Shown piece after piece: positions 1,723 to 16,067 of a stretch of DNA of 23,494 nt. This DNA is from Novosphingobium sp. 9U (GTDB lineage Bacteria > Pseudomonadota > Alphaproteobacteria > Sphingomonadales > Sphingomonadaceae). The notes beneath the pieces were generated by a model. It had not been told where the DNA came from. It made no database searches and worked only from the letters and a program-made list of their open reading frames with translations. Position numbers and translations under genes: made by a program. The first letter of the stretch is position 1. Every line of letters begins with the position of its first letter. Location of the stretch: the NCBI RefSeq assembly GCF_902506425.1, contig NZ_LR732524.1, positions 1-23,494 on the forward strand, read 5' to 3'.

Positions 1723-2664
1723 TCACATGTCACCTTCCTCGCGATCGCGGTACCACTTGAGCAGTTCGACGCGCTCGCGGGTAAGCTTCTCGACCTCGGA
1801 ACTGTAAAGCAGCGGCGCAATGCTGCCGTGGCCAGGGCGCTTTATTCCAGATCGGTACTCAGCCTGCCTATCACGATAGGCCTCCCATGCCGCTTGACTA
1901 GCTCTAAGGCCCTCGTCCTTTCCGTCAGGATCGAGAGCTACGAGGATCCCGACGAGCTCGTCGTTCACCTTCGCCGCATCCGCCGCCGCCGCGGCGTTCA
2001 TCTCGATCTGAGTGATTGGGTAGTCGCCATACAGGAGGGTGTTGAATGCCTCGTCGGCCGCGTTCACGAATTGCGATGTTGACAGGATATATGCGTCGAG
2101 GGCCCCGGCCTCGACTTCCTGCTGCTCCGGCAGCTCATGCACGAAGATGTGCCGTTGCTCGAACAGTCCGGCGAGAATCGTACGGACCTTATCGGGGTTG
2201 GGCATAATCGGTTCCGACGGCCTATCCCCTATCCTCAAGGCCGAGCGGTCCACCACACCCTGAAGATGGGCGAAGAGCGGCGTGTCCATCAGCCTTGAAA
2301 AGACGCGATCGATGTCACCGACGTTGTTGACAGGCAGCTCGTGCGACACGAGCTCACCGAACGACACTTCTCTGCCGACCAGTGCCCGCGCGAACGCAAA
2401 GTCGATCTTGAGCGTGCCCTTGACCAAATCCGCGCCGCGCGTTGCGTAGGGATCCCCGGCGTCGATTATCCGAGCGGCCCACTCCCGCGTGAAGACCTCG
2501 AGGATCGTCACGAGCCTGATCACGATGAACTGATGCGGAGCCCGGAAGGCGGCGCCATTCCAGCCGTCCACGAGCGCCGTGATCTCGCTCATTCCCCGCG
2601 AGTGGCCGAGCCCTTTGCCGCGCATGCGGACGCCCGCGATCTCGGCCAGCTTGTCCCGTGCCAT
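1723..2664 (-). CDS. HEPN-like protein with C-terminal LprI-type (DUF1311) domain
   Basis: The protein has 313 residues from the ATG at 2664. The N-terminal two thirds are helical and contain R171-HIFV-H176, an Rx4H motif inside a helix. This is the signature of HEPN domains, many of which are RNases in toxin-antitoxin, CRISPR and abortive-infection systems. The last ~90 residues resemble the lysozyme-inhibitor LprI/DUF1311 fold: a Q-A-A-W-x-x-Y-R-D stretch, a GHGS turn and a final helix starting LTRERVELL. The usual LprI cysteines are absent (Cys after the Y-R-D position is replaced) and no signal peptide is seen, so it should be cytoplasmic. Internal starts at 2625 or 2592 are possible. A divergent membrane-protein gene begins at 3188. 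The HEPN call rests on motif and helix pattern only and is moderate. Confidence 0.7.
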   Translation of the reverse strand: MARDKLAEIAGVRMRGKGLGHSRGMSEITALVDGWNGAAFRAPHQFIVIRLVTILEVFTREWAARIIDAGDPYATRGADLVKGTLKIDFAFARALVGREVSFGELVSHELPVNNVGDIDRVFSRLMDTPLFAHLQGVVDRSALRIGDRPSEPIMPNPDKVRTILAGLFEQRHIFVHELPEQQEVEAGALDAYILSTSQFVNAADEAFNTLLYGDYPITQIEMNAAAAADAAKVNDELVGILVALDPDGKDEGLRASQAAWEAYRDRQAEYRSGIKRPGHGSIAPLLYSSEVEKLTRERVELLKWYRDREEGDM

Positions 2665-4342: not shown

Positions 4343-5722
4343 GTGAGCGATCGGGGCGAGCGCCGAGTGGCGCAGGAGGCCTTGTTCTACGAGTTCAGCC
4401 TGGATCGACACGTTCCGGCCGATCATCTGCTGCGGGCAATCGACCGGTTCGTGATCCTGTCGGGCATGCGCAAGCACCTGCGCGGCCTTTACAGCGCGAT
4501 CGGTCGCCCTTCGATCGACCCTGAGCTGATGCTGCGGATGCTGATCGTGGGATACTGCTTCGGCATCAGGTCGGAGCGCCGCCTGTGCGAGGAGGTGCAC
4601 CTCAACCTGGCTTACTGCTGGTTCTGCCGTCTGGGGCTCGACGGCGACGTGCCGGATCACTCGACCTTTTCGAAGAACCGGCATGGGCGCTTTCGTGAGA
4701 GTGATCTGTTCCGCCAGTTGTTCGAGGCCACTGTGCGGCGTTGCATTGAGCAAGGACTGGTCGGCGCCGACGCATTCGCTGTCGATGCCAGCCTGATCCG
4801 CGCCGAGGCCAACCGGCAGACCTATGTTGAGGGTACGCAGGGTCTTGGCGCTGTTCCGGCAGGGCGTGCCGTCGAGGAGTACCTCGCCGTACTCGACGAT
4901 GCCGCTTTCGGCGGCGCAACTCCGGTCGAGCCCAAGCGGGTTTCGCCGGTCGATCCTGCGGCCCGCTATACCCAGGCGCACGGCGGCCGCGCCGATTTCT
5001 GCTACGCCACCAACTACCTGATCGACGTCGACAATGCGGTGATCGTGGATGTCGAGGCAAGCACGGCGGTGCGCCAGGACGAGGTGACCGCCGCCAAACG
5101 GATCATCGAGCGGGCCGCCGATCGCCATGGCCTATGGCCCCGCAAGCTGATCGGCGACACCGGCTATGGCTCTGCCGGCATGCTCGCCTGGCTCGTCCAC
5201 GAACGTGGCATCGAGCCGCACGTGCCCGTCTTCGACAAGTCCGCCCGGAGTGATGGTGCGTTCGAGCGCAGCGACTTCACCTTCGATCACGAGGATGACA
5301 GCTATATCTGCCCGGCTGGCAAGCGACTTCGTCCGCGCAACCGCAACTTCGCCTCGCCGCGCCCGAAAGTCGATCAGGACGGCTTCATTCGCTACCGAGC
5401 CCGGCAGCAGGACTGCACCAGTTGCGCCCTCAAGCCGCAATGCACACCCATCCTGCCGGCGCGCAAGGTCACGCGCGCGATCCATGAGGGCGCCCGAGAT
5501 CTGGCACGCTCCCTATCGCAAGAGGACGAATGGGTAGCCTCACGCCGCGAGCGCAAGACGGTCGAGATGCTGTTTGCCCACCTCAAGCGCATCAGGCGGC
5601 TCGATCGGCTGCGATTACGCGGACCCAATGGCGCCAGAGACGAATTCCACCTCGCCGCAGCCGCCCAGAACCTGCGCGAGCTCGCAAAGATCAGCATCGC
5701 CAGGCAGATGGCGATGGCATGA
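4343..5722 (+). CDS. IS1182-family DDE transposase
   Basis: This 459-residue transposase is near full length for the family. It has the expected N-terminal block (ALFYEFSLDRHVPADHLLR, then IGRPSIDPELMLRMLIVGY), a DDE catalytic triad at about D148 (FAVDAS), D272 (IGDTGYGS) and E408 (VEMLFAHLKR), and a Cys cluster (C-x2-C-x5-C near residues 358-367). It performs cut-and-paste transposition. The start is GTG at 4343, without a clear ribosome site. Family members usually begin M-(M)-G-x-R-x-V-x-Q-E-A, so the extra Ser-Asp-Arg here may derive from flanking DNA after loss of the element's left end. All catalytic residues are intact, but without a left end it may no longer move itself. Confidence 0.92.
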   Translation: MSDRGERRVAQEALFYEFSLDRHVPADHLLRAIDRFVILSGMRKHLRGLYSAIGRPSIDPELMLRMLIVGYCFGIRSERRLCEEVHLNLAYCWFCRLGLDGDVPDHSTFSKNRHGRFRESDLFRQLFEATVRRCIEQGLVGADAFAVDASLIRAEANRQTYVEGTQGLGAVPAGRAVEEYLAVLDDAAFGGATPVEPKRVSPVDPAARYTQAHGGRADFCYATNYLIDVDNAVIVDVEASTAVRQDEVTAAKRIIERAADRHGLWPRKLIGDTGYGSAGMLAWLVHERGIEPHVPVFDKSARSDGAFERSDFTFDHEDDSYICPAGKRLRPRNRNFASPRPKVDQDGFIRYRARQQDCTSCALKPQCTPILPARKVTRAIHEGARDLARSLSQEDEWVASRRERKTVEMLFAHLKRIRRLDRLRLRGPNGARDEFHLAAAAQNLRELAKISIARQMAMA

Positions 5723-5875: not shown

Positions 5876-6058
5876 CACATAACGGAGTTCACGATGCTGA
5901 CGATGGAGCCGGGGCCCGACATCGCGCTCTATCACGACCGGCAGATCGCGATCCTCGAGCGCCGCGACTGGGCCGACTGGCTCGACCCCTCGGTCCCGGC
6001 AAAGTCGATCTTGCGGCCGCTGCCGGCAGGGAGCCTCGACGTCGTCCGGGTCGGGTGA
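5876..6058 (+). pseudogene. C-terminal fragment of an SRAP (YedK/HMCES-like) gene
   Basis: About 60 codons survive, reading EFTMLTMEPGPD, then YHDRQIAIL and LDPSVPAKSILRPLPAGSL. This is the C-terminal part of SOS-response-associated peptidase family proteins, including the conserved His in the ALYHDRQ segment that corresponds to the active-site His of the family. Intact SRAP proteins are roughly 200-250 residues. They cover abasic sites in single-stranded DNA through an N-terminal Cys2, and here that Cys and the first three quarters of the protein are gone. The fragment starts where IS1182 sequence ends, so the insertion, or a later deletion from it, removed the 5' part. It should be non-functional. 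Confidence 0.75.
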
Positions 6059-6449
6059 TCGCGCGCGCGATATCTGTTCATGAGCAACGAGAGTTTCGAA
6101 CGTTCATGACGAGCGACTCGCCGGGGCAGATCTGGCTTCCGAAGAAACGGGACGCCCTTAAAGCCTCCTCGTGCCGGTGCGCCGATAGTCAAAAAAGGTG
6201 GATCGATCGCGCCCGGTAGCTCTACGTAACCTCAATTGTCCGGCGCGCTTCACCATCAGACCCGACACCGTAAACCCCAATAAAATAGATTATAATTCGA
6301 AACACGCCATTTCGGATGAATAATGTTCGGCGCATGGCGCGCTCTGAGACTCTTATTCGCCAAGATAATCGCTCGTCGGGCGCTTGACCTGGAAGTGCCG
6401 CTACGTCACCATCTCCCGCTCTTGGGGGAATTGCGCGTGGCGAGGGGGT
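6059..6449. other. Upstream region of the envelope gene cluster
   Basis: There is no gene here. Around 6270-6340 the sequence becomes markedly AT-rich compared with its surroundings and includes a perfect TATAAT at 6291-6296. This is the likely promoter zone for the operon that follows. Confidence 0.5.
6291..6296 (+). promoter_or_regulatory. Candidate -10 element
   Basis: TATAAT sits inside the most AT-rich patch of the window, about 150 bp before the first gene of the 6450-10379 cluster. No good -35 hexamer lies at the usual distance, so the call is tentative. Confidence 0.3.
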
Positions 6450-7724
6450 ATGCCTAAAGTCGCGGTAGCTGCCGCTGCCATTGCAGCCGGCAACAATATA
6501 TGGGCTGGACCGCCCAATACGGTCAGCACCTGGATCGTGCTGCTGTCGTTCAATCTCCCGATTCTTGGCGTTCTTGCGACAGTCCCCTTTTCACGGCGGC
6601 TCGGCGATGTCCTGAAAGACAAAAGTCCGGATGCCATGGGCATGGTCAGCTATAGCCGGGTGACCGGTGCGCTCGGTGCCGTGATACTGACGGCGTTTTT
6701 CTGGGCGATCGGCAATGTCGTCCTGATGGACGCGCTCGGCGACCGCGGTAACATCGTCCAGTTGCTCGATGCCGCCGGGCGATTCTTCCTCGTGGGATCG
6801 GCGCTGTTCCTACCTTATGCCTTCAATCAGTTGCGGTCGATATTCCCATGGGCCGCAGGGACCAACGCGGCCCTGATCGCGTCGGCGGACGCGACAGCAC
6901 AGCACACCCCGGCCGAGCTGGTCATCGCCAATCTTTCCTCGATCCCCGATGCCGAGCTGGAGGCAGCGATCGTCGGGATCCAGGCGCAGGTGAGCGGTGA
7001 GTTCGCCAAAGAATGGGGCATATCGGCGAAATTGATCTGCCGCAGGGTCGATCCCGGCGTTCCGGCAGCCGGCCCGGCGGCCGCCGCGACCATCTACCTT
7101 GGCGACAAGGCGCACGATCCGCATGCAGGCCAGCAGACATTGGCGGGCTATCATACACAGACCCAGGGCGAAGCAGCGTCGGGGTTCGTCTATCTCGACG
7201 TTTGTCGGCAGTATAAGGCCGACTGGACGGTGATGCTGTCGCACGAGGTGCTCGAGCTGCTCGCCGATCCGACTGCGGTGATGAAGCTGGATGGTCCGCA
7301 TCCGCGGGGCCCCACCGTGACGGTCCAATATGCGCAGGAAGTCTGCGACGCCGTTCAGGCCGACATCTATCTGTCGAAGGGCGTGAAGGTCTGCAATTTC
7401 GTCCATCGGGCGTTCTTCGGCCTGCCGGGGGGATCGCCCACGCTCAATCATCTGGGCCGACCCCAGGAAAGGTTCGGACCGCGGCCCGGCGGCTATGTGA
7501 CATGGTTCGACGACGCGGGAGGCCATGAACACTGGTCTGACGAGACTCCGCAAGTGCAGATGGCGGCCCGGCTCCGCAACCTAGACCTTCGGCGCAACGG
7601 CCGCCGTTTCGGCCGGCTTCCCGCCGCTTTGCAACCAACCGTTCCGGCCAAGCCCAAAGGCGTTGCGGAGCAGCTGATCAGCCGGCTGCGCCCCGGCAAA
7701 ACACCCCGAAACCCTGATCCATAG
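6450..7724 (+). CDS. Membrane-anchored protein with HExxE putative metallopeptidase domain
   Basis: Counted from ATG 6450 the product has 424 residues. Three hydrophobic segments lie at about 24-46, 71-94 and 108-130 and should anchor it in the inner membrane. The C-terminal ~270 residues match an uncharacterised bacterial domain in which a peptide-like substrate cleft is suggested by S-H265-E266-V-L-E269-LLADP. This is an HExxE in place of the classical HExxH zinc site. It is followed by QEVCDAVQADIY, then a F-V-H-x-x-F segment and a GGYVTWFDDAGG stretch. H265, E269 and a later Asp or His could bind zinc, but activity is not shown. The start is uncertain: ATG 6450 has GAGGGGG directly before it, and a TTG at 6384 would add 22 residues. 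Its stop overlaps the ribosome site of the next gene, so the two are probably translated together. Confidence 0.8.
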   Translation: MPKVAVAAAAIAAGNNIWAGPPNTVSTWIVLLSFNLPILGVLATVPFSRRLGDVLKDKSPDAMGMVSYSRVTGALGAVILTAFFWAIGNVVLMDALGDRGNIVQLLDAAGRFFLVGSALFLPYAFNQLRSIFPWAAGTNAALIASADATAQHTPAELVIANLSSIPDAELEAAIVGIQAQVSGEFAKEWGISAKLICRRVDPGVPAAGPAAAATIYLGDKAHDPHAGQQTLAGYHTQTQGEAASGFVYLDVCRQYKADWTVMLSHEVLELLADPTAVMKLDGPHPRGPTVTVQYAQEVCDAVQADIYLSKGVKVCNFVHRAFFGLPGGSPTLNHLGRPQERFGPRPGGYVTWFDDAGGHEHWSDETPQVQMAARLRNLDLRRNGRRFGRLPAALQPTVPAKPKGVAEQLISRLRPGKTPRNPDP

Positions 7725-7727
7725 GAG
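7723..7727 (+). promoter_or_regulatory. Shine-Dalgarno site overlapping the upstream stop codon
   Basis: AGGAG shares its first bases with the TAG ending the metallopeptidase-like gene and lies seven bases before ATG 7735. It fixes the start of the lipoprotein gene and implies translational coupling. Confidence 0.6.
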
Positions 7728-7734
7728 ATTGGCC

Positions 7735-9429
7735 ATGATGCGCGTGCCCATGATCGTTCTGCTGTCCATGCTCGCGACCGGCTGTGCATCCAGCATCAAG
7801 GTGTCGCATCTCGACACCAGCATCAGTCCCACGAAGGGTGTGCCGTGGAACCTGGCGATGACGCAGTACAGCATCACAATCACGCGCGAGATCAAATCGT
7901 GCGACAATGCCCTCAACGGCAGCGTGACGGTTGCGGCCACGGCAGGAAAAACTCTCGATCGCGACCAGCAATATGCGCTCTATTCAAGCGGGGTCTGGGC
8001 GACCAGCGACATCACCTCGACCTTGGCGGCCGACGGCACGAGCACCGGGCTCAACGCCCATTCCGAAGATCAGACGGGACAGGTGATCGCCAATATCGCG
8101 ACCACCATCGCCAAGGGGGCGATCAGTATGGGCGCCGCGCCGGGCGTCCATTTCACCTGCTCGGACAAGGTGCAAAAGGCGCTCGACGCACTGCATCCAG
8201 TGGGCAAGGACGAACTGAGCGATGTCGTCGACAAAGAGACGGCGGATGTGGCTGCCGCAACGACGGTCGTCACGCAGCTGACGACAGCGCTCGGTTCGGA
8301 CAAGGCGAACAAGGCTCCATTGCTCAAGGCCTATACCGCGCTGAATGCCAAACAGGCTCTTCTGACGACCGATCAGGCGCGGCTGGCGGCGTTCACCAAG
8401 CTGGTGACCCACGTCCAGAAGGTCGACTGGCCGCCCAAAGGCGACGTCGCCCAGACGACCGCGCCGTTCAAGCTTCCTCAGGATGTGCTGGACAAATGGA
8501 TCACATGGGTCGTTCCGGCCGGACAGAAGCCCGGCACGGTCGATACGGCCGCGTTCGATGTCCACCTGGCCATCTATGCCCGCGCGGACGATGGCGGCTG
8601 GGCGGTGCCGACGGTTGCGCCCGCAACCGCGGATACCGAGGTCGGCGTTCCCGTGCGGCTGCCGCGCGTCGGCCGGGTCGTCGCATGCACCGTTAAAGCG
8701 TGCGATGCCACGCTGCCAGTCGGCTGGACGCCGACCGATGAAGCGAAGCTGGTGATCGCACCCGATGTCGCCGTGCTGCAACTCGGACGGCTCTACACCG
8801 TCCCTTGCGCGGGAGGCACGTTCAAGTCGGAGGCGTGCGTCATCGCGATCGACGCCAACGGCATACCCACATCGGCCCAGGTCTCGGAGAAGGTGGCGGC
8901 GGCCGCCGCGGCCACCGGCTCCCTTGCCTCTGTCGCGACGACCGCAGCCGATCTGCCAGGGCAGATCGCCGCGGCACGATTGGCGCGGACGAAGGCGCAG
9001 GCCGACCAGCTGACCGCGGAAAACACATTGGCCGCCGCAAGAGCGGGCGCGCCGACTGCGGCGGAGACGGCCGCTGCCAATGCCCAGCTCGCTTATATCA
9101 ATGCGATGAACGGCGTTACCGCCGCGCAGGCCGCGGCGCCGACCGCGCAGGCGACGGCGCAAGCCAACGCGCAGCTCTCCTATCTCACGGCGGCGAACAA
9201 CCTGGCCACGGCGCAGGCCAATGCGCAGACGGCAGGTCCGGCAGGTCAGGCGGCCGCACAGACCGCGCTGACCAACCAGCAGACAGCACAAGCCAGCGCT
9301 GAAGCTCTGGCTGGCGTAACGCCCCAGATCAGCGCCTTGACGGCACAGACGTCGCTGCTCAACGCCCAGGCCGCGCAGATCAATGCACAGGTCGCATTGA
9401 ACAAGGCGCAAGCCGCCCTGCAACCCTAG
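7735..9429 (+). CDS. Large lipoprotein with Ala/Gln-rich repeats
   Basis: This 564-residue protein has a signal peptide (hydrophobic core MIVLLSML) ending in a lipobox, A-T-G-C, with the lipidated Cys at about residue 17. It should be an outer-membrane or periplasmic lipoprotein. The middle (about 20-380) is a soluble region I do not recognise, with several Cys residues that could form disulfides. From about residue 400 it becomes a long Ala/Gln/Thr-rich helical region with near-repeats of about 30 residues. The clearest repeated core is AxANAQLxYxxAxN, seen twice (around residues 440 and 475) with weaker versions after it. Such a region can form a coiled coil spanning the periplasm. ATG 7735 was chosen for its AGGAG seven bases upstream. 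It lies between an HExxE membrane protein and a multipass protein, so it probably works with both. Confidence 0.82.
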   Translation: MMRVPMIVLLSMLATGCASSIKVSHLDTSISPTKGVPWNLAMTQYSITITREIKSCDNALNGSVTVAATAGKTLDRDQQYALYSSGVWATSDITSTLAADGTSTGLNAHSEDQTGQVIANIATTIAKGAISMGAAPGVHFTCSDKVQKALDALHPVGKDELSDVVDKETADVAAATTVVTQLTTALGSDKANKAPLLKAYTALNAKQALLTTDQARLAAFTKLVTHVQKVDWPPKGDVAQTTAPFKLPQDVLDKWITWVVPAGQKPGTVDTAAFDVHLAIYARADDGGWAVPTVAPATADTEVGVPVRLPRVGRVVACTVKACDATLPVGWTPTDEAKLVIAPDVAVLQLGRLYTVPCAGGTFKSEACVIAIDANGIPTSAQVSEKVAAAAAATGSLASVATTAADLPGQIAAARLARTKAQADQLTAENTLAAARAGAPTAAETAAANAQLAYINAMNGVTAAQAAAPTAQATAQANAQLSYLTAANNLATAQANAQTAGPAGQAAAQTALTNQQTAQASAEALAGVTPQISALTAQTSLLNAQAAQINAQVALNKAQAALQP

Positions 9430-9512
9430 CCACGCATCGGCGCACTCGGACGTTGGGCGGGTCGGGAGGATCGACAAAGGGCGGTGCCCGATCGACGGGA
9501 ATGAAGGCGACC

Positions 9513-10379
9513 ATGGACGAGCTGTTTCGGCAAATTCCCTCGCTGCTGGCCCAAGGTTTCACGTTCATCGTGATCGCGCCGCTTTTCTGGTGGAAGGCGG
9601 ACGATCTGGTCTCCAAGGACGCCAGAGAGGAACTGGTCAAAGCGGTCTCTGGCGGCGCGACAGCCGATACTCGCCAGGCGCTCGACGGTCTTCGCGACAT
9701 GCTCGACGCATATCTGCCCTGGCGGAAGGCCATTTCGACCTATTTGATCCGCGTCCTCCTCATATCGTTTTTGAGCACGCTCTCGGTCGGGATCATCTAC
9801 TTTTCCAAGACCGGAGGCTTCTGGATCCAGTTCACGTCCGGCGAGCAGGCGCGGAACAATTTTCTGTCGCAGCTGCTGCTCGACGGCTTCCTCAAGATCT
9901 TTCTCGTCAACGCCATCGGGCTGCTGCCGCACAGCTACTATGTCGGCCGCCTGACCAGCAGCGGCGCCATCGCCTGTCTCGGTTATCTGGCCTTCGACAT
10001 CGTCACGCGCGAAATTCTCTTCATCGCGCTGAGCGCTGTCATCTGGGTCGGGTTTGCCTTTGCGTTCGGGTCGTTCGCAGGGAGCGCGCAGATGGCCTTC
10101 GAGGCATTGCTCCCGACGTTCGTCAACGCCGGCTATTTCCGCAACCTGACGAGCGTCTATGTCTACGCGGTCGCAGCGTCGTCCCTGCCGCTCCTGATCG
10201 GCGTTCTCGCTCGCGTGCTGGGGATTACACCGACCAGTCGGCGGATCGTCAAGGTGTTGCTGTTCGTGCTGCCCTGGAAGGAAAAGCCCGTGCGGTCTCT
10301 CGCCTTGCTCGCCGCGGTCCTGATGACGCTGTTCGCGATGCTCGGCTCGGCGCTGCTTTCGCCATTGTCGCATGGGTGA
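9513..10379 (+). CDS. Multipass inner-membrane protein, hypothetical
   Basis: The product has 288 residues from ATG 9513 and about seven hydrophobic segments. They start near TFIVIAPLFWW, TYLIRVLLISFLSTLS, FLKIFLVNAIGLLP, AIACLGYLAF, ILFIALSAVIWVGFAFAF, VYVYAVAASSLPLLIGVL and SLALLAAVLMTLFAML. No transporter motif or catalytic residue pattern is recognised. ATG 9513 has GAAGG five bases upstream; ATG 9501 would add four residues and has a poorer site. It is the third gene of a co-directional set with the HExxE membrane protein and the lipoprotein, about 80 bp after the latter, which suggests a common envelope complex. It ends 65 bp from the convergent EEP-family pseudogene. Confidence 0.8.
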   Translation: MDELFRQIPSLLAQGFTFIVIAPLFWWKADDLVSKDAREELVKAVSGGATADTRQALDGLRDMLDAYLPWRKAISTYLIRVLLISFLSTLSVGIIYFSKTGGFWIQFTSGEQARNNFLSQLLLDGFLKIFLVNAIGLLPHSYYVGRLTSSGAIACLGYLAFDIVTREILFIALSAVIWVGFAFAFGSFAGSAQMAFEALLPTFVNAGYFRNLTSVYVYAVAASSLPLLIGVLARVLGITPTSRRIVKVLLFVLPWKEKPVRSLALLAAVLMTLFAMLGSALLSPLSHG

Positions 10380-10444
10380 CGCGACACGACGCGAGGCCCG
10401 TCCGAAGGCGAGATCCCGCGCTGCCGCTCGACGGAATCCACGAT

Positions 10445-11376
10445 CTAACGGTTGAGGATGACCGCGATCGGACAGTGATCGGATAATGCTTCTCGCCGCC
10501 CGCATAGCGGGTCTCGGTGGAGGCGACGAGGTCGGCCCCGGCGCGCCGGTCGAGGACGTTGTAATCGATGAAGCTGTCAAAGCGCGGGTCTCAGCCGGGG
10601 AGCGTGCCCATGTCGGCGAGGCGCAGGCTTGCGTTGGCAGGCTGGCCGTCGTCGAGTTCCGACCAGAAAGGATCGCCGGGCACGGCGAGGCGGCGGTTCC
10701 AGTCGCCGAGCACCGCAAATCGTATCGGGCCGCTGGCTGCCGCATCGATCCAGGCCTCGATCGCGGGCAACTGCTGGAGAAGGGCCGGGCAGGCCCTGTT
10801 CTCGGTGCCCTCGAAGCAACCCGATTTCAGGTGGACGCCGCGCAGCCTGATCGGCCCGTGCCCTGCGGCCCGCAGGGTGATATCAATCCCCGAGCGCAGT
10901 TGCGGGTTTCCTACCTCCAGCGAGGTCACATCGGGATGCCGCTCGAAAGCGAGCCCCTTGCGGATGGCGAAGCCGACCGCCTGCCGGATGAAGAGCTTGT
11001 CGGGATGGCGACCGCCGCAGGTCCCACTCACGGCGCCGGGCCGGTTCTCCATGACGATGCTGTAGCGCGCCGGATCGACGACGCGAGCCGCCGCCGCCGG
11101 ATTCTCGGCTTCCTGGAAGGCGACGACATCAGCGTCGAGGCTGTCCGCGATCCGCCGCATCGCCTGATAATCCTTGGGCCGGCGCGGCTCGCAGCCGGCA
11201 CCATCCTTTTCGGCGAGGAATTCGAGGTTCCAGCTGGCCAGCCTGAGCGGCCGGGCGGAAGCGGAGTGCCGGGCAGGGGTGGCGCTGTCGGGGCCAGGGC
11301 GTGGACTCGAGGTGCAGGCGGCGAGGGCGGCAAGGAAAAGGGAAAGGGCGAGATGCGTGATTGGGCGGAAGGTCAT
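10445..11376 (-). pseudogene. EEP-family nuclease/phosphatase lipoprotein gene with a nonsense codon and a frameshift
   Basis: The gene starts at ATG 11376 (AAGG three bases before it) with a lipoprotein signal peptide ending L-A-A-C, lipidated at Cys21. It then shows endonuclease/exonuclease/phosphatase signatures: LASWNLEFL, VVAFQEAEN, LRGVHLKSGCF and VLGDWNRRL. Translation stops at TGA 10591-10593. The same frame continues with DPRFDSFIDYNVLDRRAG, clearly the next part of the domain, and the final SDHCPIAVILNR with its catalytic Asp-His appears in another frame ending at TAG 10445-10447. A one-base loss near 10484 explains the second break. By analogy with relatives the TGA probably replaced a Cys codon. 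As it stands the product lacks the catalytic C-terminal His and should be inactive, unless both lesions are sequencing errors. Confidence 0.85.
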
Positions 11377-15290: not shown

Positions 15291-16067
15291 CTAGAGGTGC
15301 GCGACACTCACCAGGCCGAGCGCTGCTACCCCCATCCAGACCGACATAGCGATCATCATCAGGTTCTCGGTCAGAGACAGGAAGCCTAGCGGCACGTTGC
15401 TGGAGCCACCCACGCATGCGCACTTCAGTTCACGCCTGTCGATGTAGACGGCCTTGATGACGGACACGGCCCCAACGGTCCCGATCAACAGCGCGACGGG
15501 CACTGACACACTTGTCAACACGCCCGCGATCATCAGCACGCCGGCAAGCCCTTCTGCGAAGGGGTAGATGTACGAGTACGGCACCCAGCGCTTCGCCAGG
15601 AGGTCGTAGTTGAGGAACATCGTCGCGAAACTTTCGACGTTCTGGAGCTTGAGCAACGCCAGCACTGCTATGCTGAAGCCGATGAACCACTCGCCCGCGC
15701 GCACTGTGAACGGCGTGCCGTAGACGGCTTGGCTCGCCGCGAGCGCCATAAGCGCTGTCATGGCGAACAGGGCCACGACGGGCTTGTACGTCGTCGCCTT
15801 CGGGTCTGCGACGCTCTTCCCGAAATGGCGGCGCAGGTCGGCGTAACCGCCGATCCGCTTGCCAGCGATAAAGGTCTGCGGCGTGGTCTTGACCCCGTGT
15901 TTGGCCTTGAAGTTGTCCGTTTCTTCGCGCGTAGTCAGCCACCTGTCATCGACGGTGTAGCCTTGCCGTTGCAGCAGATCCTTTGCCTTCAAGCCAAATG
16001 GGCAGACGTGCTTATCCATGACCATCCGGTACAGGGTGGCACGGCGGGGTTCGGCGATCGCGGACAT
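15291..16067 (-). CDS. Glutaredoxin-MauE/DoxX-like fusion membrane protein
   Basis: From ATG 16067 the product has 258 residues. The first ~85 form a glutaredoxin-like domain with the active site reduced to one cysteine, C22-P-F-G. It then has TTPQTFIAGKRIGGYADLRRHFG, the cis-Pro and glutathione-binding region. The remaining residues hold four or five helices of the MauE/DoxX type, ending with a C216-A-C218-VGG-SSNVPLGF signature typical of redox-linked MauE-like proteins. It probably moves reducing power or thiol chemistry across the inner membrane. The frame is open to GTG 16109, but the MerR-type -10 box lies at 16108-16113, so transcription starts inside that region and ATG 16067 is preferred. 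The gene is divergent from a MerR-family gene and is very likely activated by it. Confidence 0.88.
   Translation of the reverse strand: MSAIAEPRRATLYRMVMDKHVCPFGLKAKDLLQRQGYTVDDRWLTTREETDNFKAKHGVKTTPQTFIAGKRIGGYADLRRHFGKSVADPKATTYKPVVALFAMTALMALAASQAVYGTPFTVRAGEWFIGFSIAVLALLKLQNVESFATMFLNYDLLAKRWVPYSYIYPFAEGLAGVLMIAGVLTSVSVPVALLIGTVGAVSVIKAVYIDRRELKCACVGGSSNVPLGFLSLTENLMMIAMSVWMGVAALGLVSVAHL

Follow-up and report, generated by a model that had tools for sequence, protein, structure and literature searches.

Enzymes with the motif HEXXE in place of HEXXH are represented by the CLCA-type zinc metalloproteases; an excerpt of one report assigns HEXXE to CLCA1, a zinc metalloprotease (PMC6851300). 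The domain encoded by the first gene of the locus described here, which we call g1, shares this replacement, but it lacks the VWA and other CLCA domains and gave no match to these enzymes in Pfam or among solved structures. The HExxH zincins (thermolysin-like or metzincin-like) resemble it in a His-Glu pair that, judging from the alignment, falls in a predicted helix preceded by strand-like stretches. They differ in that the second His is a Glu in 97/97 g1 relatives, so that g1 does not carry the zincin motif; none of 38 members of the domain matched a zincin family in Pfam. Four bacterial or phage-contig members of the Phi_1/EXORDIUM family (PF04674) have the residues Y/WH...HExxE...ExxD in the same order as the g1 domain, and an excerpt of one study describes the EXO proteins as resembling no protein whose function is known (PMC2661892). 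Finally, the RoxA-like di-haem cytochromes (PF21419) are comparable to the product of the second gene, g2, in being exported, lipoprotein-like partners of an HExxE domain; their sequence, however, is unrelated to g2 and they are absent from the genome of the window.

The window is the whole stretch of DNA that was analyzed (23,494 nucleotides). The sequence-only reading placed three co-directional genes in it, and the list of open reading frames bears this out directly (Table 1). The third gene, g3, could start at 9453 (TTG) or at 9501 or 9513 (ATG); with its 288 residues, the database protein corresponds to the start at 9513, 83 bases past the g2 stop. Translational coupling of g1 and g2, which had also been claimed, may exist because a GGAG begins on the last base of the g1 stop codon (7722-7724) and the ATG of g2 follows 10 bases after g1; the two genes do not overlap. 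Upstream of the three genes lies a transposase open reading frame with DUF772 and DDE domains in Pfam (4343-5722). Elsewhere the window encodes a protein whose C-terminal domain is LprI (lysozyme inhibitor; 1723-2664, minus strand) and a glutaredoxin domain fused to a MauE domain (15291-16067, minus strand).

Table 1. Coordinates of the three genes and of the parts of their products
Feature	Position in window	Strand	Details
g1, membrane module and HExxE domain	6450..7724	+	ORF, 424 aa, ATG at 6450; 98 homologues besides itself
g1 membrane module	6528..6834	+	helix 1 residues ~27-46, helix 2 ~72-94, weak helix 3 ~111-127
g1 HExxE domain	6924..7610	+	residues ~159-387; alignments A1, A4, A5
g1 H235 codon	7152..7154	+	candidate active-site His; 97/97 and 88/88 relatives
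g1 HExxE motif codons H265-E269	7242..7256	+	H265 and E269 97/97; E266 96/97
g1 single codons	H265 7242-7244, E266 7245-7247, E269 7254-7256	+	
g1 ExxD motif codons E297-D300	7338..7349	+	E297 and D300 97/97 each
g2 lipoprotein	7735..9429	+	ORF, 564 aa, ATG at 7735; 58 homologues besides itself; linked to g1
g2 parts			body residues ~18-390; Ala/Gln-rich tail 391-564
g3 multipass membrane protein	9513..10379	+	ORF, 288 aa; neighbour; two other homologues; hydropathy scan

The proteins of the three genes found no convincing relative in Pfam, NCBIfam or PHROGs; the best of the weak matches were g3 to TIGR03068 (E 0.064, under the cut-off of that model) and g1 to phrog_28052 (E 0.14). A wider PHROGs search with g1, g2, g3, three relatives and ten viral members gave only matches at E 0.037 or weaker, and no PADLOC family matched g1, g2, g3 or the relative P0010 at E up to 0.01. 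Profiles of the g1 domain fared alike among solved structures, with three chance-level matches for alignment A1 (best E 0.28) and no match for A5, while the 38 domain members produced four single weak matches in Pfam (best E 0.013). The earlier statement that no described system has this set thus holds within the Pfam, NCBIfam, PHROGs, PADLOC and solved-structure searches.

A pattern-free search, in which the 8000 candidates with the most shared words were scored, yielded a g1 family of 99 proteins including g1 itself. Seventy of these (P0001-P0070) are full length with 361-429 residues; the others (P0071-P0099) mostly have 240-320 residues and lack the membrane part. The conservation of the domain is directly established: H235, H265, E269, E297 and D300 are invariant in the 97 aligned relatives (alignment A4), and E266, a Lys in P0012, and C299 are each kept in 96/97. 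H235, H265, E266, E269, E297 and D300 are also kept in 88/88 diverse sequences, a set from which 13 loci (window copies, membrane-module-only loci and near-duplicates) had been removed, and in all 38 sequences of alignment A5. The patterns used to fetch the loci included part of HExxE or CD; H235 and E297 lie outside these patterns. The HExxE motif read from the letters of g1 is therefore confirmed, with a conservation far above chance that indicates very strong selection. Judged by sequence, the domain is a widespread, undescribed family with a putative metal site and with no Pfam, PHROG or solved-structure relative.

Genomes near the window rarely contain it. The g1 model matched 3/296 genomes of the window's order, namely the window's own, one with the domain only and one with the membrane module only; in a sample of the class it matched 1/385, the window's own. 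In the order of genome G966 it matched 8/250: the domain is present in six and the membrane module alone in two, and no match is full length.

By analogy with the HEXXE of CLCA1, a metal would probably be bound by H265, E269 and E297 (or D300), E266 would serve as general base and H235 would assist on the substrate side. We consider it somewhat probable that the domain is a metal-dependent hydrolase; that it is a peptidase in particular is less probable and is put forward with reserve. The explanation that we favour as a whole, although we hold it tentatively and at a little short of even confidence, is that the membrane-anchored g1 acts as a metallohydrolase, most probably as a peptidase, and works with g2, and that g3 is incidental. 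One relative speaks against a metallohydrolase, the Lys of P0012 at the position of E266. The same protein, without the putative general base, would fit a domain that is non-catalytic, with a structural metal, and acts as a scaffold or sensor recruiting g2 or other exported partners, as would the finding that the domain is fused to or lies beside several unrelated enzymes (see below). We regard such a scaffold as unlikely, since E266 is otherwise kept to a degree beyond the need of a purely structural site.

The compartment of the domain bears on what g1 may act on. A simple hydropathy scan of the window protein returned only two helices. Among the 70 full-length relatives the best 17-residue stretch scored at least 1.6 in 100% for segment 1, 93% for segment 2 and 54% for segment 3. 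Of the three membrane helices first proposed, the third is weak by both measures. Lys plus Arg per protein in these relatives averaged 0.17 in the N terminus, 3.93 in loop 1, 1.19 in loop 2 and 1.81 after segment 3; the corresponding values for Asp plus Glu were 0.39, 3.27, 1.86 and 0.37. A hydrophobic N terminus occurs in 3/84 stand-alone HExxE loci, in which starts were guessed and near-duplicates counted, and is lacking in the other 81. The loop charges and the rarity of signal peptides suggest that the HExxE domain is cytosolic, as would follow from three crossing helices with these charges; if the weak segment 3 does not cross, the domain would face outside. Envelope proteolysis, the function once suggested for the cluster, becomes doubtful because the loop charges and the missing hydrophobic N termini both indicate a cytosolic domain. 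In the reading that we prefer, the membrane module would tether g1 to the inner membrane, with the domain probably in the cytosol.

The membrane module also stands alone, in three loci (L033, L038 and L108). In L108 (1207-2426) it adjoins an Rv2525c-like, glycoside-hydrolase-like gene. In L038 (4983-5375; Ensifer adhaerens pCasidaAB) it is followed by a 992-aa gene with no Pfam match, and the stretch also contains the DISARM genes DrmA and DrmB as well as a gene with a weak resemblance to ThsA. A known defence system was considered and set aside: PADLOC had no match for g1-g3, and the position of the L038 module near DrmA/DrmB may be chance.

The linkage of g1 and g2 recurs in other genomes. 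Seventeen of the 57 other g2 homologues sit on contigs whose size equals exactly that of a contig with a g1 homologue, so that common location is here deduced from equal size in bases, the contigs themselves being unread. With the window's own pair the count is 18/58, and all g1 partners are full length, none stand-alone. When the sizes were shifted by 1-20 either way, 6 matches occurred in 40 offsets (0.15 expected). Neighbouring locus tags for g1 and g2 are found in Ralstonia solanacearum (LBW59_24315/24320) and Massilia sp. GER05 (ACL58G_29435/29440). P0012, with its Lys at E266, still matches a g2 homologue in contig size.

The two other homologues of g3, by comparison, come from contigs 1706 and 10522 bases long, which are in neither the g1 nor the g2 list; the 1706-base contig is so small that linkage could not show on it. 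The check for conserved co-occurrence therefore separates the set: g1 and g2 recur as a pair, whereas membership of g3 is not supported. Three genes as one recurring unit were rejected because the g3 homologues are not on the listed g1 or g2 contigs. That all three nevertheless form one envelope module, as the same strand, the short gaps and a simple scan that showed no terminator-like site on the plus strand from 6000 to 10700 might suggest, is quite improbable given that g3 has just these two unlinked homologues. It would rather be a chance neighbour or have been added locally.

That g1 and g2 are a true functional pair we consider likely. In the favoured explanation g1 would act together with the co-transcribed g2. 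The latter may serve g1 as a substrate or as a partner in processing; alternatively, the two proteins may form a relay with g2 at its envelope end. Two points argue against a partnership. With the domain in the cytosol and the lipoprotein exported, the two would occupy different compartments, and g2 was not found in ten genomes that hold other g1 relatives (0/10) or in the genomes examined from the order of G966 (0/250).

The assignment of g2 as a lipoprotein proved sound: it has the lipobox MLATGC with Cys17, and a lipobox-like sequence is present in 51 of the 54 homologues that start with Met. Its tail (37% Ala, 13% Gln) is long, as first described, but a single unbroken helix spanning the periplasm is doubtful because Pro and Gly split the tail into stretches of at most 33 residues. 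Comparison of g2 with solved structures gave only weak coiled-coil-like matches (best E 0.016). The family counts 59 proteins including that of the window. In a sample of the phylum, g2 was found in 3/329 genomes including the window's own; the other two copies are partial, that of G956 with internal stops. Fourteen pattern matches to g2 in viral contigs were not confirmed. An origin of g1-g2 from plasmids or GenBank phages was also considered and is unsupported by the searches made with one homologue of each: the g2 homologue P0126 had no match among plasmids, and the g1 homologue P0018 had none among GenBank phages and matched plasmids only in part, in 3 records.

Other genomic contexts of the domain point in more than one direction. 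It forms a fusion with a phosphoesterase (PF04185) at L102 (1501-3720) and with DUF7379 (PF24096) at L103 (3-2274, minus strand), whose sequence we take to resemble an alpha/beta hydrolase. These fusions are no particular pointer to a peptidase. In four Caulobacterales loci (L002, L003, L004 and L010) the domain gene is preceded by a RoxA-like di-haem gene, with a P450 between the two in L003; in L002 a SOUL gene follows downstream. Each of the four RoxA-like genes has two CxxCH motifs and encodes a lipoprotein-like N terminus. Their genomes contain one RoxA-like match each, at that very locus, and the window's genome contains none; in 14 control genomes the RoxA-like profile gave one match, below the cut-off. 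This context comes from four genomes that were found via the HExxE gene and is a small sample.

These neighbours and both fusions would fit a metal-dependent hydrolase that acts on lipids or small molecules, in lipid or oxidised-lipid metabolism. A SOUL-like gene, recognised by eye, also adjoins the domain gene in L032, and RoxA-like PA2077/PA2078 oxygenate fatty acids according to an excerpt of one study (PMC4496055). We nonetheless find a lipid substrate unlikely, as no such neighbours surround g1-g2 in the window and most HExxE loci have other neighbours. Two contexts are no proof of function.

The HExxE domain is also encoded at 61 IMG/VR loci (near-duplicates included; "viral" is the label of the collection), and we flag it here as a common gene of uncultivated phages. 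It might then be a phage accessory factor for lysis or anti-defence that bacteria adopted, with g1-g2 as a domesticated form. Neighbours with M15 and CHAP domains would agree with this, as would the gene order of L077, which by eye reads holin-like, lipoprotein, HExxE, M15-like. Tad6, Tad2-like and Acb2/Tad1, families of Thoeris/CBASS inhibitors, occur as one viral-locus neighbour each (L040-L100, alignment A3); the Tad2-like neighbour is presumably L089:6789-7118, going by its motif. Several results speak against such a factor, which we rate as rather unlikely. GenBank phages gave no match for three queries (one bacterial full-length and two viral); the commonest shared neighbour family is found in only 6/54 non-duplicate viral loci (seven loci dropped). 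A scan of 122 of the 188 listed neighbour genes revealed no PHROG or Pfam family in more than two among the best 25 of 96 and of 44 families. Furthermore, the chromosomal surroundings are conserved in one Burkholderiales lineage (L011, L014 and L015).

In 8/36 phage cases the gene immediately upstream is a small lipobox gene, versus 9/443 distant genes (p 7e-6), where distant means at least four genes away and the upstream position was picked after inspecting the sequences; counting up to two genes on each side gives 10/166 (p 0.017). These counts, and that of small genes, used gene calls from a simple custom script and left out genes longer than 250 aa and four near-duplicate loci in addition to the seven dropped earlier. 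A lysis role via small membrane neighbours was rejected, as these are not enriched near the domain gene (20/166 near versus 57/443 far). Exported partners recur with the HExxE domain, namely g2, the RoxA-like proteins and the small phage lipoproteins.

Phi_1 was chosen for comparison as a family with a similar motif. The Phi_1 Pfam model matched 1/14 genomes and 2/100 genomes, one of them the same. Four bacterial or phage-contig Phi_1 sequences (L110, L111, L112 and L114; L113 was excluded as a fragment) contain Y/WH, HExxE, T-D and ExxD in that order. Alignment of A5 with three Phi_1 sequences by hhalign gave a score of 28.6 (probability 10%, P 0.003, 26 columns), and 40 column shuffles of this comparison reached a maximum of 22.25 and a mean of 13.95. 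When aligned less strictly, H235 pairs with the His of WH and E297 with the Glu of ExxD. The pattern Y/WH...HExxE...ExxD occurred in 96/4863 frames, all in loci of one or other of the two families, and missed 9 family loci. None of the 38 domain members matched the Phi_1 model at E up to 1, the other Pfam searches gave no Phi_1 match either, and Phi_1 had no relative among solved structures by sequence. Phi_1 members appear secreted, in contrast to the stand-alone HExxE relatives described above. On this motif-level evidence, with weak support from the profiles, common descent of the HExxE domain and Phi_1 is likely.

Among the papers searched, none joins EXORDIUM and HEXXE; in the excerpt of one, EXORDIUM and metalloprotease stand as unrelated words. 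The broader idea, which we present as doubtful, is an unnamed metallohydrolase superfamily with an H...HExxE...ExxD site that would extend over phages, bacteria and EXORDIUM/Phi_1, with the locus in the window as a membrane-tethered branch repeatedly paired with a lipoprotein. If this is true, EXORDIUM would descend from, or be, a metalloenzyme, and if the Phi_1 link holds, this plant growth family gains a testable biochemical hypothesis. Our analysis adds a widespread domain family with a near-invariant putative metal site and one recurring two-gene arrangement. A Phi_1/EXORDIUM-like protein is also encoded on viral contigs (L114 and L115).
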